Part shown: positions 14,426-40,304 of the stretch, in pieces
Layout of the letters: every line of letters begins with the position of its first letter
How positions within the stretch are numbered: the stretch's first letter is position 1
Assembly (NCBI GenBank): GCA_002796995.1
Contig: PEKW01000003.1
Coordinates: 62,001 to 126,000, forward strand
Direction of reading: 5' to 3'
DNA from: Rhizobium sp.
GTDB taxonomy: Bacteria; Pseudomonadota; Alphaproteobacteria; Rhizobiales; Rhizobiaceae
DNA length: 64,000 nucleotides
Made by a program: the position numbers and the translations under genes
The notes under the pieces: model-generated
What the model was told of the DNA's origin: nothing
Databases searched by the model: none
The model's input: only the letters and a program-made list of their open reading frames with translations

Positions 14426-15844
14426 TTAAGGCTGGGCGAGTTCGGAGGCGAGCCAGGCCTTGCAGTCGGCCAGGGCGCGCTCGGCCACCAGCTGACGCTT
14501 CATCACCGTCTTGTCCTTGCCGCGGAAGCGCTTGACGCCCTCCGGCTTGACGATCGAGCCCGGCGCCAGTTCCGGAAACAGCCCGAAGTTGATGTTCATC
14601 GGCTGGAACGAGCGTTTGCCGGGCTCCTCGTCGGTGACCAGATGGCCGCCGGTGATGTGGCGCAGCAGCGAGCCCATGGCGGTGGTCTCCGGCGGCAGGG
14701 AGATGATCTCGCCCTTGCGGTCGGCGGCGGCGAAGCGGCCGGCCAGGAGCCCGATCGATGCGCTCTCGACATAGCCCTCGCAGCCGGTGATCTGGCCGGC
14801 AAAGCGCAGGCCCGGCCGGCTCTTCAGCTGCAGCGACGGATCGAGCAGCACCGGGGAATTGATATAGGTGTTGCGGTGCAGACCGCCGAGCCGGGCGAAT
14901 TCGGCATTTTCCAGGCCCGGGATCATGCGGAAGATCTCGGATTGCGCGCCGTAGCGCAGCTTGGTCTGGAAGCCGACCATGTTGTAAAGCGTGCCGAGCG
15001 CATTGTCCTGGCGCAGCTGCACGACGGCATAGGCCTTGACGGTCGGATTGTGGGCATTGGTCAGGCCCATCGGCTTCATCGGCCCGTGGCGCAGCGTTTC
15101 GCGGCCGCGCTCGGCCATGACTTCGATCGGCAGGCAGCCGTCGAAATAGGGCGTGCCTTCCCATTCCTTGAAGCCGACCGTGTCGCCGGCGATCAGTGCA
15201 TCGATGAAGGCATTGTACTGGGCTTCGTCGAGCGGGCAGTTGATGTAGTCCTTGCCCGTGCCGCCCGGACCCACCTTGTCGTAGCGCGACTGGTACCAGC
15301 AGATATCCATGTCGATGGAATCACGGTGAATGATCGGGGCGATGGCGTCGAAGAAGGCCAGCGCATCCTCGCCGGTCTCGGCGCTGATCGCCTCGGCGAG
15401 ATCGGGCGACGTGAGGGGGCCGGTGGCGATGATCGTCAGGCCCCAGTCCTTGGGCGGCAGGCCGGTGACCTCTTCGCGCACGACGGTGATCAGCGGATGG
15501 GCATGGATCGCCTGGCTGACGGCGTCGGAAAAGCCGTCGCGGTCGACGGCGAGCGCGCCGCCGGCGGGAACCTGGTGCTTGTCGGCGCAGGCCATGATCA
15601 GCGATCCGGCCAGCCGCATCTCGGCATGGATGACGCCAACGGCATTGGCCGTCGCATCGTCGGAGCGGAAGGAATTGGAGCATACCAGCTCTGCAAGACC
15701 GTCGGTTCGGTGCGCATCCGTGCCGCGCACGCCGCGCATCTCGTGGAGAATGACCGGAACGCCGGCCTGCGCAGCCTGCCAGGCGGCCTCGGAACCGGCA
15801 AGGCCGCCGCCGATCACATGAATGGGGGAGGGAGTGGTTTTCAT
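14426..15844 (-). CDS. trmFO: Methylenetetrahydrofolate-tRNA-(uracil-5-)-methyltransferase TrmFO (472 aa)
   Basis: TrmFO is a folate- and FAD-dependent enzyme that makes ribothymidine at position 54 of tRNA. The FAD-binding [14 protein letters not shown] motif is at residues 12-25. Family markers include [18 protein letters not shown], the region [11 protein letters not shown] holding a conserved Cys, and [20 protein letters not shown] near 335. The second of two adjacent ATG codons (15844) gives [14 protein letters not shown]; the first is at 15847. The gene stands alone on the minus strand and is convergent with the small membrane-protein gene. Confidence 0.93.
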
Positions 15845-15936
15845 CATGGCGTGCTGCTTATCACGGGACGGTTTGGCGGCCAATCCTTTCCCGTCTGCCG
15901 CAGGCAGGGCACGCGGCAAGCAGGGAGCCAGAATCG

Positions 15937-15987: not shown

Positions 15988-16131
15988 TTAGCGGAAGGAG
16001 CGGGCAGCAATATTGCGGATTTCGTAGCGGGTGATGCCGATGTCGGACAGGGCCTGGTTGGACAGGTTGCCCAGTTCGGCGATGGTGCGGCGGTAGCTCA
16101 TCCAGTTCTTGGCGATGCGGATCGGGTTCAT
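15988..16131 (-). CDS. DUF1127 micro-protein (47 aa)
   Basis: The product is a 47-residue arginine-rich protein of the DUF1127 (YjiS-like) family. The N-terminus is [20 protein letters not shown] and the conserved helix reads [20 protein letters not shown]. In Rhodobacter a DUF1127 protein (CcaF1) binds RNA and is co-transcribed with CcsR small RNAs; DUF1127 genes in Brucella are activated by the LysR-type regulator VtlR. GAGGAAA precedes the ATG. Upstream lies a -10 TATAAA (16200-16205) and, 16 bases further, a 13-base T-N11-A box. The gene has its own terminator. Confidence 0.88.
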
Positions 16132-16205: not shown

Positions 16206-16221
16206 CGCCTGTAAAACAATA

Positions 16222-16234
16222 TTGTGCAGTGCAA
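16222..16234 (-). promoter_or_regulatory. T-N11-A box, copy 1 (DUF1127 promoter)
   Basis: TTGCACTGCACAA on the minus strand has TTG/CAA ends and the T-N11-A layout of LysR-type regulator sites. Its 3' end is 16 bases from the -10. An identical 13-mer at the same spacing precedes the small-RNA array. Confidence 0.55.
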
Positions 16235-16327
16235 ATAATAAGCGACTGCTATGCAAATGTGCATGGTGTGCTGCAATAAAAGGCAGCTATCGGCAGGCGG
16301 GCACAGGCGCCCGAAAAAGCGGCAAAG

Positions 16328-16353
16328 AAAAAGGCCTCCCGCAAGGGAGGCCT
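16328..16353 (-). terminator. Terminator of the second DUF1127 gene
   Basis: AGGCCTCCC-GCAA-GGGAGGCCT is a 9-bp stem followed on the minus strand by five T, 27 bases after the stop of the second DUF1127 gene. Confidence 0.8.
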
Positions 16354-16379
16354 CTTTGCAATCGGGTTTGTCGTCAGGA

Positions 16380-16526
16380 TCAGCCGGCGACGGCGTGACG
16401 TGCCACGCGGCGAATGTCCTCGCGGCCAATGCCGAGGTCGCGAAGTTCGCGGTCGGACATGCGGCCGAGTTCGTTGACGGTCTGACGATACTTGCGCCAG
16501 TTGTTGAGCGAGCGAGCGATGTTCAT
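16380..16526 (-). CDS. DUF1127 micro-protein, second copy (48 aa)
   Basis: This is a second arginine-rich DUF1127 protein (MNIARSLNNWRKYRQTVNEL, then LRDLGIGREDIRRVARHA). It is clearly related to the first copy but divergent, so the pair is not a recent duplication. AGAGGAAAG precedes the ATG. The gene lies downstream, on the same strand, of the CCUCCUCCC hairpin array that terminates at 16781. A CtrA-like box sits 140 bases upstream of the start, so it may have its own promoter. Confidence 0.88.
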   Translation of the reverse strand: MNIARSLNNWRKYRQTVNELGRMSDRELRDLGIGREDIRRVARHAVAG

Positions 16527-16668
16527 GATCTTTCCTCTTTCCGGTTGCGGCTCCCCGGGGGGGGCGGGTGCCTGCTTGAATTCGATGACCGGAATATATG
16601 CTGCGCTGCGAAAAAGCGGAAGTGACATCGCCGTATGACTCCTATGCGGTGGACGCATAGAGGCATGG

Positions 16669-16683
16669 TTAACATGCGGTAAA
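16669..16683 (-). promoter_or_regulatory. CtrA-like box upstream of the second DUF1127 gene
   Basis: On the minus strand the sequence is TTTA-CCGCATG-TTAACC, one base from the TTAA-N7-TTAA consensus and with the frequent CC extension. The position, about 140 bases before the ATG, is plausible for a distal promoter; chance occurrence is possible. Confidence 0.3.
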
Positions 16684-16769
16684 TTGACGCATTTTTCGGC
16701 GCTTGACCGGGCGGTGAGGAAGCCTCGGCAACGTGCTTGTGCGCTGCAGTATCGCAAGTCGGCGGGATT

Positions 16770-16905
16770 GGGAGGAGGATAAAAAAATAACGCTCACCGG
16801 GGGAGGAGGATCCGGTGAGCGTCATTTTGAGAGACCGACGACTGGGAGGAGGAGTGTCGTCAGTCAGTTCGACGCCGCGCTGGGAGGAGGAGTGCGCAGG
16901 GTCGA
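16770..16905 (-). ncRNA. Cuckoo/CcsR-type small RNA array with CCUCCUCCC loops
   Basis: Read on the minus strand, three successive hairpins each present an anti-Shine-Dalgarno loop. Hairpin A (16871-16903) and hairpin B (16833-16865) have the identical 13-base loop ACTCCTCCTCCCA. Hairpin C (16790-16822) has a perfect 11-bp stem, loop ATCCTCCTCCC, and a T-tract behind it. A fourth motif TCCTCCTCCC lies at 16770-16779, beyond the T-tract. Tandem hairpins with CCUCCUCCC loops beside a DUF1127 gene are the definition of the CcsR/cuckoo family known from Rhodobacter and relatives. Family membership is inferred from structure; expression is untested. Confidence 0.7.
16781..16822 (-). terminator. 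Terminator hairpin with anti-SD loop
   Basis: ACGCTCACCGG and CCGGTGAGCGT pair perfectly over 11 bp, followed on the minus strand by TATTTTTTT. The same structure thus acts as the last CCUCCUCCC hairpin and as a Rho-independent terminator. Confidence 0.8.
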
Positions 16906-16975
16906 AGGTCGTATCGGCAGAGAACCGCCGCATGAGCGAAAAACAAAGAAACTTCGTCCGCGCTCTGTTGAAGAC

Positions 16976-16981
16976 ACATTA
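16976..16981 (-). promoter_or_regulatory. -10 element of the small-RNA array
   Basis: TAATGT on the minus strand lies 16 bases downstream of the 13-base box, the same geometry as at the DUF1127 promoter. It predicts an RNA start near 16969, about 65 bases before the first hairpin. Confidence 0.45.
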
Positions 16982-16997
16982 GGCGGAAAACGCGCCG

Positions 16998-17010
16998 TTG
17001 TGCAGTGCAA
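16998..17010 (-). promoter_or_regulatory. T-N11-A box, copy 2 (small-RNA promoter)
   Basis: TTGCACTGCACAA on the minus strand is identical to the box at 16222-16234. The rest of the 660-base gap 16527-17187 holds the hairpin array, the CtrA-like box and no convincing protein gene. Confidence 0.55.
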
Positions 17011-17187
17011 TATTGTCATGGAAGCCATGCACGAGATGCATGATTGAGCCGGTGCGGGCGGGCGTGGAGACGCTAAGGGCCCGATTGTCTTTTGCCGGCG
17101 TTCGGCTCAAGAATGGCGGAAACGACCGGACGGCGGCCGTGCCAAGCGGCACGAGGCGCGCCGAACCGGGATGGGGACGGAGAATTC

Positions 17188-28158: not shown

Positions 28159-28177
28159 GGCAAGGAACCGACTCTTG

Positions 28178-28189
28178 GGAGGAGGAGGG
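28178..28189 (-). promoter_or_regulatory. Anti-SD-like CCTCCTCCTCCC in the kinase leader
   Basis: On the minus strand the leader of the histidine kinase carries this pyrimidine motif inside a weak ACTC/GAGT stem (28171-28195). It is the same core as the loops of the small-RNA array at 16.8 kb. The role is unknown. Confidence 0.4.
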
Positions 28190-28280
28190 ACGAGTGACTA
28201 GCATGCGTGGACGCGGCCGTCTCCTCAAGGCGACGGTTCGGCGTGAATTTGTTTATTGTTTCAACATGCTGGCGCGGCCC

Positions 28281-39961: not shown

Positions 39962-40036
39962 TGGCACGCCCTAGGGGAGTCGAACCCCTCTTCCCAGAAT
40001 GAAAATCTGGTGTCCTAACCGATAGACGAAGGGCGC
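39962..40036 (-). tRNA. tRNA-Glu (anticodon TTC), copy 1
   Basis: A 75-base tRNA with encoded CCA. The anticodon stem CCAGA/TCTGG encloses TTTTCAT with anticodon TTC. A G-U pair closes the acceptor stem. The mature sequence appears identical to the copy at 40230-40304. Confidence 0.94.
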
Positions 40037-40229: not shown

Positions 40230-40304
40230 TGGCACGCCCTAGGGGAGTCGAACCCCTCTTCCCAGAATGAAAATCTGGTGTCCTAACCGATAGACGAAGG
40301 GCGC
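40230..40304 (-). tRNA. tRNA-Glu (anticodon TTC), copy 2
   Basis: Same tRNA sequence as copy 1, 193 bases away, with CCA encoded and anticodon TTC. The duplicated unit includes the leader (GCGCCCTTATAGTCAGG on the plus strand) and promoter, so each copy is separately transcribed. The gap 40305-40557 holds this promoter and nothing else clear. Confidence 0.94.

Follow-up and report, generated by a model that had tools for sequence, protein, structure and literature searches.

On the minus strand of the 64,000-nt stretch of Rhizobium sp. DNA analyzed here (hereafter, the window), three tandem hairpins with CCTCCTCCC in their loops lie upstream of two DUF1127 genes. They were initially annotated as a candidate array of cuckoo/CcsR-type small RNAs that could pair with ribosome-binding sites or titrate a regulator. 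This raises the questions of which RNA the locus encodes and what switches it on.

The hairpin RNA and its neighboring genes

A covariance-model search, which the initial annotation had suggested, returned a full-length minus-strand match to ar14 (RF02344) at 16910-16785 (Rfam cmscan, 105.7 bits against a cut-off of 58.8). The match covers positions 1-123 of the 123 in the model and passes the curated cut-off. The ar14 family is described as three hairpins, each bearing the anti-Shine-Dalgarno (anti-SD) motif CCUCCUCCC (PMC10746234, PMC7143759), and in the window CCUCCUCCC is unpaired in every one of the three hairpins while the stems vary. It is therefore very likely that the window RNA is an alpha-r14 silencing sRNA. 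The membership of ar14 in the cuckoo family is taken from a citation in a review (PMC7143759); the short DUF1127 gene beside the sRNA that marks the cuckoo CIN1 locus is present in the window, so the proposal of an anti-SD sRNA of the cuckoo circle next to DUF1127 genes stands. The RNA and its neighbors are as follows.

14426..15910, minus strand: trmFO (GidA-like), the syntenic anchor (PF01134, 332 bits)
15988..16131, minus strand: DUF1127b, 47 aa (PF06568, 52.5 bits)
16380..16526, minus strand: DUF1127a, 48 aa, counterpart of SMc02051 (PF06568, 62.7 bits)
16770..16778, minus strand: fourth CCTCCTCCC, past the terminator, probably outside the RNA and not conserved
16781..16828, minus strand: hairpin 3, the terminator (fold 16828-16784), with loop CCTCCTCCC at 16801-16809 and a T7 tract at 16781-16787
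16785..16910, minus strand: alpha-r14 sRNA core with three hairpins (RF02344 match; fold z -8.6)
16833..16865, minus strand: hairpin 2, anti-SD CCTCCTCCC in the loop at 16844-16852
16868..16906, minus strand: hairpin 1, anti-SD CCTCCTCCC in the loop at 16882-16890

The minus-strand gene order is sRNA, DUF1127a, DUF1127b and trmFO, and both DUF1127 genes that had been noted downstream lie on the same strand and were confirmed by their PF06568 matches. For DUF1127b, the Pfam score and the listing of the gene in relatives used a reading from three codons upstream of its ATG. The name DUF1137, printed in one paper for SMc02051 and SMc02052, is taken as a slip.

The region 16760-16920 folds at -60.3 kcal/mol, against a shuffle mean of -30.7 (z -8.6; 0 of 200 shuffles equal it). 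CCTCCTCCC occurs six times in the 64 kb (0.87 expected), a count that 0 of 100 shuffles reach, and four of the six are within this locus. Sequence and folding agree with the three tandem hairpins of the initial annotation and with its view that the loop is conserved and the stems are not: hairpins 1 and 2 have 15 identical loop bases, not 13, on unlike stems. Hairpin 3 with its T7 tract is visible as a terminator at the sRNA 3' end in both sequence and fold, but the 11-bp stem assigned to it gave way to 17 pairs predicted by folding, the outer ones drawing on the T run. Rather than an array of several RNAs, the sequence reads as what would be one three-hairpin transcript. The initial observation was thus correct; what accounts for it is a curated RNA family, already well described, to which the RNA adds a new member. 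This changes little as such; the new part is the regulatory reading.

The fourth motif is present beyond the terminator at 16778-16770, as first noted, but is not a conserved part of the array. We aligned 15 orthologs, 14 from the genus (window included) and Ciceribacter L033. The 14 were selected from 30 same-genus trmFO loci, 18 of which have the motif on the trmFO strand; L124, L131, L134 and L139, which show one or two motifs, are not among the selected loci. Past the terminator, the window alone has an exact CCTCCTCCC; none of the 14 other aligned orthologs does, and the two closest relatives have CCCTCTCCCCC and CCCTCTTCCC at this position. A fourth functional hairpin was rejected given this absence from relatives, and the motif is probably a pyrimidine tract that is no part of the RNA.

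Elsewhere in the window, two tRNA-Glu (ttc) genes on the minus strand (39962-40036 and 40230-40304), identical in the cmscan alignments, lie 268 bases apart.

Conservation and covariation across relatives

Three ar14 copies, the window copy included, are present in the host genome. At E 0.001, ar14 matches were found in 45 of 60 relatives, including 35/35 of the same genus, and 37 of the 60 pass the family cut-off. A TrmFO scan confirmed 590 loci, the best 80 of which were named and compared (hereafter, the best 80 of 590); the closest named record among the matches listed is Ciceribacter sp. L1K22, whose TrmFO shares 90% identity with that of the window. DUF1127 genes are present at 74 of the 80 named loci. 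Where the sRNA is present among the best 80 of 590, the usual Rhizobiaceae order is sRNA-DUF1127a-DUF1127b-trmFO, and the Mesorhizobium, Phyllobacterium and Brucella loci are mostly arranged as DUF1127-sRNA-trmFO. Seven Agrobacterium/Rhizobium loci (L045, L046, L049, L051, L054, L061 and L062) have both DUF1127 genes before trmFO and no CCTCCTCCC there; L061 and L062 have in common a Sinorhizobium-type PhaR site before DUF1127a.

We built a covariance model (R1) on 32 sRNAs taken from the host and from its genus; in the best 80 of 590 trmFO loci it gave 113 matches (110 distinct) at E 0.01, all but one on the trmFO strand. After weaker or truncated matches were left out, 102 were carried on, spread over 62 of the 80 loci. 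Across the 113 matches from the best 80 of 590 loci, 95.3% of stem cells are paired, the least-paired helix being the outer part of hairpin 1 (83.7%). Changes on both sides occur in 30/30 pairs (781 such cells versus 214 shuffled), and the covariation score of 0.634 falls below 0.08 when partners are slid, in an alignment fitted to the R1 model, which favors pairing. Across the three loops, CCTCCTCCC is retained in 101, 94 and 68 of the same 113 matches, and the majority fraction is 0.90 for loops versus 0.69 for stems. The compensatory changes that the initial annotation had proposed to look for are therefore found, with stems covarying across the named relatives (best 80 of 590 loci).

Longer trains of CCTCCTCCC stand before trmFO in Aurantimonas/Aminobacter loci (L077 5097-5785, L104 2212-2626, L074 4890-5196), with five to eight copies at partly regular spacing of ~137 or 76 bases. 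In the host genome, the ar14 paralogue in L002 (~1501-1658) has, beyond the 5' end of the Rfam match, a fourth hairpin with CCTCCTCCC (extra motif at G000:C34:228758-228766), and L027 has the same motif upstream of its match.

Predicted promoter elements and PhaR-type operators

Upstream of the sRNA, TGCA-N6-GCAT, TTCCATG, ATATTGCACTGCACAA (which contains the -35 CTGCAC), 17 bases and CTAATG follow in this order. The -35 and -10 were read by comparison with relatives, and a start near 16968 is suggested by the box-to-start offset given for NfeR1 of Sinorhizobium meliloti (PMC10746234). The elements predicted at the locus are listed below; PhaR-type sites have no strand assigned.

16219-16239 and 16261-16281: two PhaR-type sites, DUF1127b promoter, matrix 23.0 (best of the 64 kb) and 12.2
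16596..16616: PhaR-type operator, DUF1127a promoter, matrix 17.8, second best of the 64 kb
16644..16657, minus strand: predicted LsrB-type box TGCGTCCACCGCAT of DUF1127a, one base off the published pattern
16734..16754: further PhaR-like site in the sRNA-DUF1127a interval, matrix 13.5
16977..17005, minus strand: predicted sRNA core promoter, -35 CTGCAC at 17005-17000, N17, -10 CTAATG at 16982-16977
16995..17015: PhaR-type operator over the sRNA -35, minus-strand CAATATTGCACTGCACAACGG, matrix 14.7, fourth best of the 64 kb
17027..17040, minus strand: predicted LsrB-type box TGCATCTCGTGCAT of the sRNA promoter, exact TGCA-N6-GCAT as for NfeR1 (PMC10746234)

The LsrB box pattern of NfeR1 is thus found upstream of the core promoter, at 17040-17027. 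The bare TGCA-N6-GCAT is exact upstream of 11 of the 102 sRNAs versus 0.4% in shuffles, and 75/102 upstream regions hold it with 2 or 3 mismatches, as most shuffles do; since this enrichment is modest, matrices were used instead. A 44-base matrix trained on 14 same-genus sRNA promoters beats every shuffle upstream of 25 of the 30 named first sRNA copies (missing L056, L059, L060, L065 and L105), of which L033 is probably of the same genus as the training set; as this matrix contains the PhaR element, it is no test of the LsrB box alone. The 26-base matrix of the DUF1127a box does not include the PhaR site; it scores above the 99th percentile of shuffles at 33/37 DUF1127a genes and above all shuffles at 19/37. 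It also passes at 12/12 second sRNA copies and 13/30 first copies, and at 0/20 DUF1127b genes and 0/37 trmFO controls. LsrB is reported to activate NfeR1 (PMC10746234), and VtlR, its Brucella counterpart, three DUF1127 genes (PMC12595884), with both of which a shared LysR input fits.

The element TGCACTGCACAA fits the PhaR consensus TGCRNYGCASMA (PMC6201568) and also sites known from S. meliloti, the phaP1 site among them (PMC12542648). Its core in the locus promoters is TGCACTGCA, the core of the sRNA operator matches TGCRNYGCASMA, and exact TGCRNYGCASMA is found in 19 of 70 sRNA upstream regions versus 0.36% in shuffles. For scoring we used a palindromic matrix of 16 sites from table rows marked as efficiently bound in PMC12542648, where binding is scored per promoter fragment; four exoH sites, from one shared bound fragment, were left out, and SMc02051 is not among the 16. 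Predicted operators are present in the promoters of the sRNA (14.7, low among the published sites, whose leave-one-out range is 13.7-27.4), DUF1127a (17.8) and DUF1127b (23.0). Five of the seven window positions scoring 10 or more sit in 0.8 kb (16219-17015), at all three promoters, and the other two score 15.5 and 12.8; the binomial value for this clustering is 6e-9, for a region chosen beforehand for the finding with bounds set afterwards. The promoters of the two ar14 paralogues in the host genome score 18.6 and 17.1, and a phasin gene of the same genome (PF09361), a positive control, has tandem sites of 22.5 and 23.9. Other PhaR-type sites of the host genome are at C6:943545 (L168, 19.7), C42:67640 (L173, 24.1) and C6:729534 (L167, 15.4); the L173 and L167 sites precede open frames, and near L168 there is an Rfam COG3860 RNA match, with no frame over 90 aa found just after the site.

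The clustering recurs in relatives. Of the best 80 of 590 loci, 61 entered a test over ~13 kb, 30 of Rhizobiaceae type and 31 of other arrangement. The best site of the locus falls inside the sRNA-DUF1127 region in 28/30 Rhizobiaceae-type loci (2.8 expected; misses L035 and L066) and in 28/31 of the others (2.8 expected; misses L086, L087 and L102), although these counts are not independent because the orthologs are related. With 100 permuted palindromic matrices, the count over the same 30 Rhizobiaceae-type loci averaged 7.1 and never exceeded 24. These 30 loci hold 76 sites of 12 or more in 38,184 nt inside the region and 6 in 363,831 nt outside, and the permuted matrices place a mean of 1.2, and at most 16, inside. 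A site of 12 or more is retained in 68 of the 74 DUF1127-bearing loci (best 80 of 590).

PhaR itself is encoded in the host genome (TIGR01848, 150.1 bits, over the cut-off) and was found in 62 of the 65 genomes searched, which carry 65 of the best 80 of 590 loci. It was not found in Ochrobactrum sp. CGA5, Brucella rhizosphaerae and a Brucellaceae metagenome bin (L093), and the operator scores of these three (1.2, 7.5 and 5.6) are the lowest of the 60 searched genomes with DUF1127. Among the PhaR-bearing genomes with DUF1127, 54/57 score 12 or more and the remaining three fall just under (L054 10.9, L040 11.0, L051 11.9); B. endophytica has PhaR and keeps the site (21.2). The three PhaR-less genomes, all Brucellaceae, probably represent one loss event, and the L093 bin may be incomplete; beyond the examined region, its contig has a site of 15.9.

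SMc02051 was identified as DUF1127a by its published 21-base promoter site, which is found exactly before DUF1127a in L067, L069 and L071. The SMc02051 protein is reported to be up by log2 1.51 (low phosphate) and 4.63 (TY) in phbC phaR versus phbC, and is called functionally uncharacterised by the authors (PMC12542648). PhaR control of the locus is fairly likely. Among the matches listed, from a search that left most subscription papers outside, no paper links PhaR to NfeR1 or to these DUF1127 genes, and PMC9230146 is the sole one to name both DUF1127 and PhaR (two mentions each). By word search, the main text of the NfeR1 paper (PMC10746234) mentions neither PhaR nor PHB nor polyhydroxybutyrate and has AniA in a reference title only, and the PhaR paper (PMC12542648) has no mention of NfeR1, sRNA or DUF1127.

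Tandem copies, proposed mechanism and alternatives

SmrC14, later NfeR1, is listed in S. meliloti between SMc02051 and tig (PMC2780559 Table 1, PMC7143759). A 2008 prediction placed two RNAs by SMc02051, smrC14 (1667614-1667488) and sm7' (1667983-1667769), 369 nt apart from start to start, sm7' then awaiting detection (PMC2573895). The published NfeR1 promoter, whose NtrC site spans -116 to -101 and whose LsrB box spans -72 to -60 (PMC10746234), identifies NfeR1 as the downstream copy. In 12 named two-copy tandem loci, an NtrC-like TGC-N11-GCA lies 110-125 nt upstream of the core in 7/12 downstream copies and 0/12 upstream copies. A PhaR site of 12 or more is found in 9/12 upstream copies (missing in L059, L066 and L070; only 12.0 in L176 and L177) and 0/12 downstream copies. 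L176 and L177 carry both published SMc02051 sites exactly, and the LsrB boxes of their tandem copies are 364 and 370 nt apart, respectively; by the coordinates of S. meliloti 1021 the NfeR1-SMc02051 gap is ~330 nt longer, so that L176 and L177 are not identical to S. meliloti 1021 here.

The window RNA resembles NfeR1 (SmrC14, SMc06496; RF02344) in family, three anti-SD hairpins, terminator and LsrB-type box, and is flanked by DUF1127a and tig as SmrC14 is by SMc02051 and tig (PMC2780559). It differs from this downstream tandem copy with its NtrC site in having a PhaR-type element and no TGC-N11-GCA in the 200 nt upstream of the core, which makes its promoter one of the sm7' type. We therefore rejected the window RNA as an NfeR1 ortholog proper, NtrC site and spacing placing NfeR1 as the downstream copy, and did not file it as NfeR1 itself. 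It shares the upstream-copy promoter type with sm7', which is in tandem with NfeR1 and a prediction as of 2008 (PMC2573895), whereas the window locus is single-copy.

These promoter types bear on a different reading of the conserved TTGCACTGCACAA, as a second (activation) LsrB half-site by the -35, with PhaR having no role at the sRNA. A two-site arrangement is common among LysR regulators. In the 15 aligned sequences, TTGCACTGCACAA has the LsrB box on one side and the -10 on the other. Activation of DUF1127 genes by VtlR, the Brucella LsrB, is also reported (PMC12595884). However, TTGCACTGCACAA matches PhaR sites, AT-rich arms included, and is lacking in the downstream NfeR1-type copies (0/12 at 12 or more), the type published as LsrB-activated. 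It is also missing in the three PhaR-less Brucellaceae loci, though VtlR controls Brucella DUF1127 genes (PMC12595884), and kept in PhaR-bearing B. endophytica. As the SMc02051 protein also rises in the phaR mutant (PMC12542648), we consider the half-site reading unlikely.

The best explanation, and a likely one, is that the locus encodes a translation-silencing sRNA that is activated by LsrB and repressed by PhaR. This builds on family, structure, covariation, synteny, motif clustering and the absence of the operator where PhaR is absent, all computed here. In the mechanism that we infer, the sRNA would have a transcript of its own, a ~125 nt core possibly with a ~58 nt leader, driven by a sigma-70 promoter that carries an activator box of LsrB type. 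It would act in trans, its three exposed CCUCCUCCC loops pairing with the Shine-Dalgarno region of several mRNAs and blocking their translation. PhaR (AniA), a repressor titrated by PHB granules, would hold the operator over the sRNA -35; the DUF1127 genes also carry PhaR-type operators, and DUF1127a an LsrB-type box as well. Accumulation of PHB would then switch on the whole locus together, to which LsrB would add a redox input.

For NfeR1, three redundant anti-SD motifs are reported to silence mRNAs, ntrB among them (PMC10746234). In the window, GGGAGG immediately precedes the start of the frame that was read as ntrB from its position ahead of ntrC. The pairing of this ntrB frame with the sRNA spans 6 bases; as long a pairing is seen at 5 of the 44 roughly called gene starts of the window, so it does not discriminate. 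GGGAGGAGG is not enriched in the host genome (29+20 matches versus 26+29 for the reversed pattern), and target prediction is of little use. On the plus strand at 28177-28194, GGGAGGAGG is followed 8 bases later by a GTG, the first codon of a 395-aa frame with no Pfam match; if this frame is a gene, its start region has a full 9-base match to the sRNA loops.

It is improbable that the repeated loops act mainly as a sponge that titrates a protein, perhaps DUF1127 in the way CcaF1 acts on CcsR RNAs, with mRNA pairing secondary. The sRNA does adjoin DUF1127 genes in most named loci (best 80 of 590), and CcaF1 is a small RNA-binding DUF1127 protein in CcsR maturation (PMC10253847). Yet NfeR1 loops silence mRNA reporters and loop mutations abolish silencing (PMC10746234), the loop sequence is exactly anti-SD, and, of other DUF1127 proteins, Salmonella YjiS is reported without RNA binding found and those of Agrobacterium as acting on PhoR (PMC12501420).

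We give as little weight to the idea that this copy is a silent duplicate, rarely or never transcribed and kept only by its neighborhood. In its favor are the poor -10 (CTAATG), northern blots that reliably showed just one of six S. meliloti copies under the conditions tested (PMC7143759), and sm7', which had yet to be detected in 2008 (PMC2573895). Within the genus, however, promoter footprint, stems and loops are conserved while the flanks diverge, compensatory changes are frequent, and PhaR repression would itself predict silence in the conditions tested. There is next to no chance that the motifs are GGGAGGAGG ribosome sites of small plus-strand genes, a reading also weighed in the initial annotation and rejected here: open frames on the plus strand overlap them, but they sit in loops of covarying hairpins whose stems are retained, and across the best 80 of 590 trmFO loci the arrays all carry CCTCCTCCC on the trmFO strand, with no GGGAGGAGG listed there.

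The window RNA can be set beside other systems. CcsR1-4/ccaF1 of Rhodobacter sphaeroides (cuckoo family) likewise has small RNAs next to a DUF1127 gene, but there ccaF1 and the CcsR RNAs are reported as one RpoHI/RpoHII transcript cut by RNase E (PMC10253847). A CcsR-style co-transcript is not what the window sequence points to, the sRNA coming first, apparently alone, with its own terminator and its own predicted sigma-70/LysR-type promoter. MmgR of S. meliloti is an sRNA gene with a PhaR-bound promoter (PMC12542648 Table 3), as predicted from the operator in the window, but is another RNA at another chromosomal place (PMC7143759).

We slightly favor a wider proposal, namely that membership of the alpha-r14/cuckoo-DUF1127 locus in the PhaR regulon is ancient and extends across Hyphomicrobiales. 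PHB granules, through titration of PhaR, would release the sRNA together with one or two DUF1127 proteins, and tandem copies would split inputs, PHB/LsrB to the upstream copy and nitrogen/LsrB to the downstream one (NfeR1). Such a split would account for the upstream copy of S. meliloti having gone undetected as of the 2008 report. If so, carbon storage would directly reset the translation of uptake genes, and one regulator linked to the carbon store would govern both an sRNA family and DUF1127 small proteins of disputed function. SMc02051, reported as strongly PhaR-regulated (PMC12542648), would be named as the DUF1127 protein beside NfeR1. The regulatory reading bears on the silence of most alpha-r14 copies and on the signal common to DUF1127 genes and their sRNA neighbors, both of which are testable with S. 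meliloti mutants.
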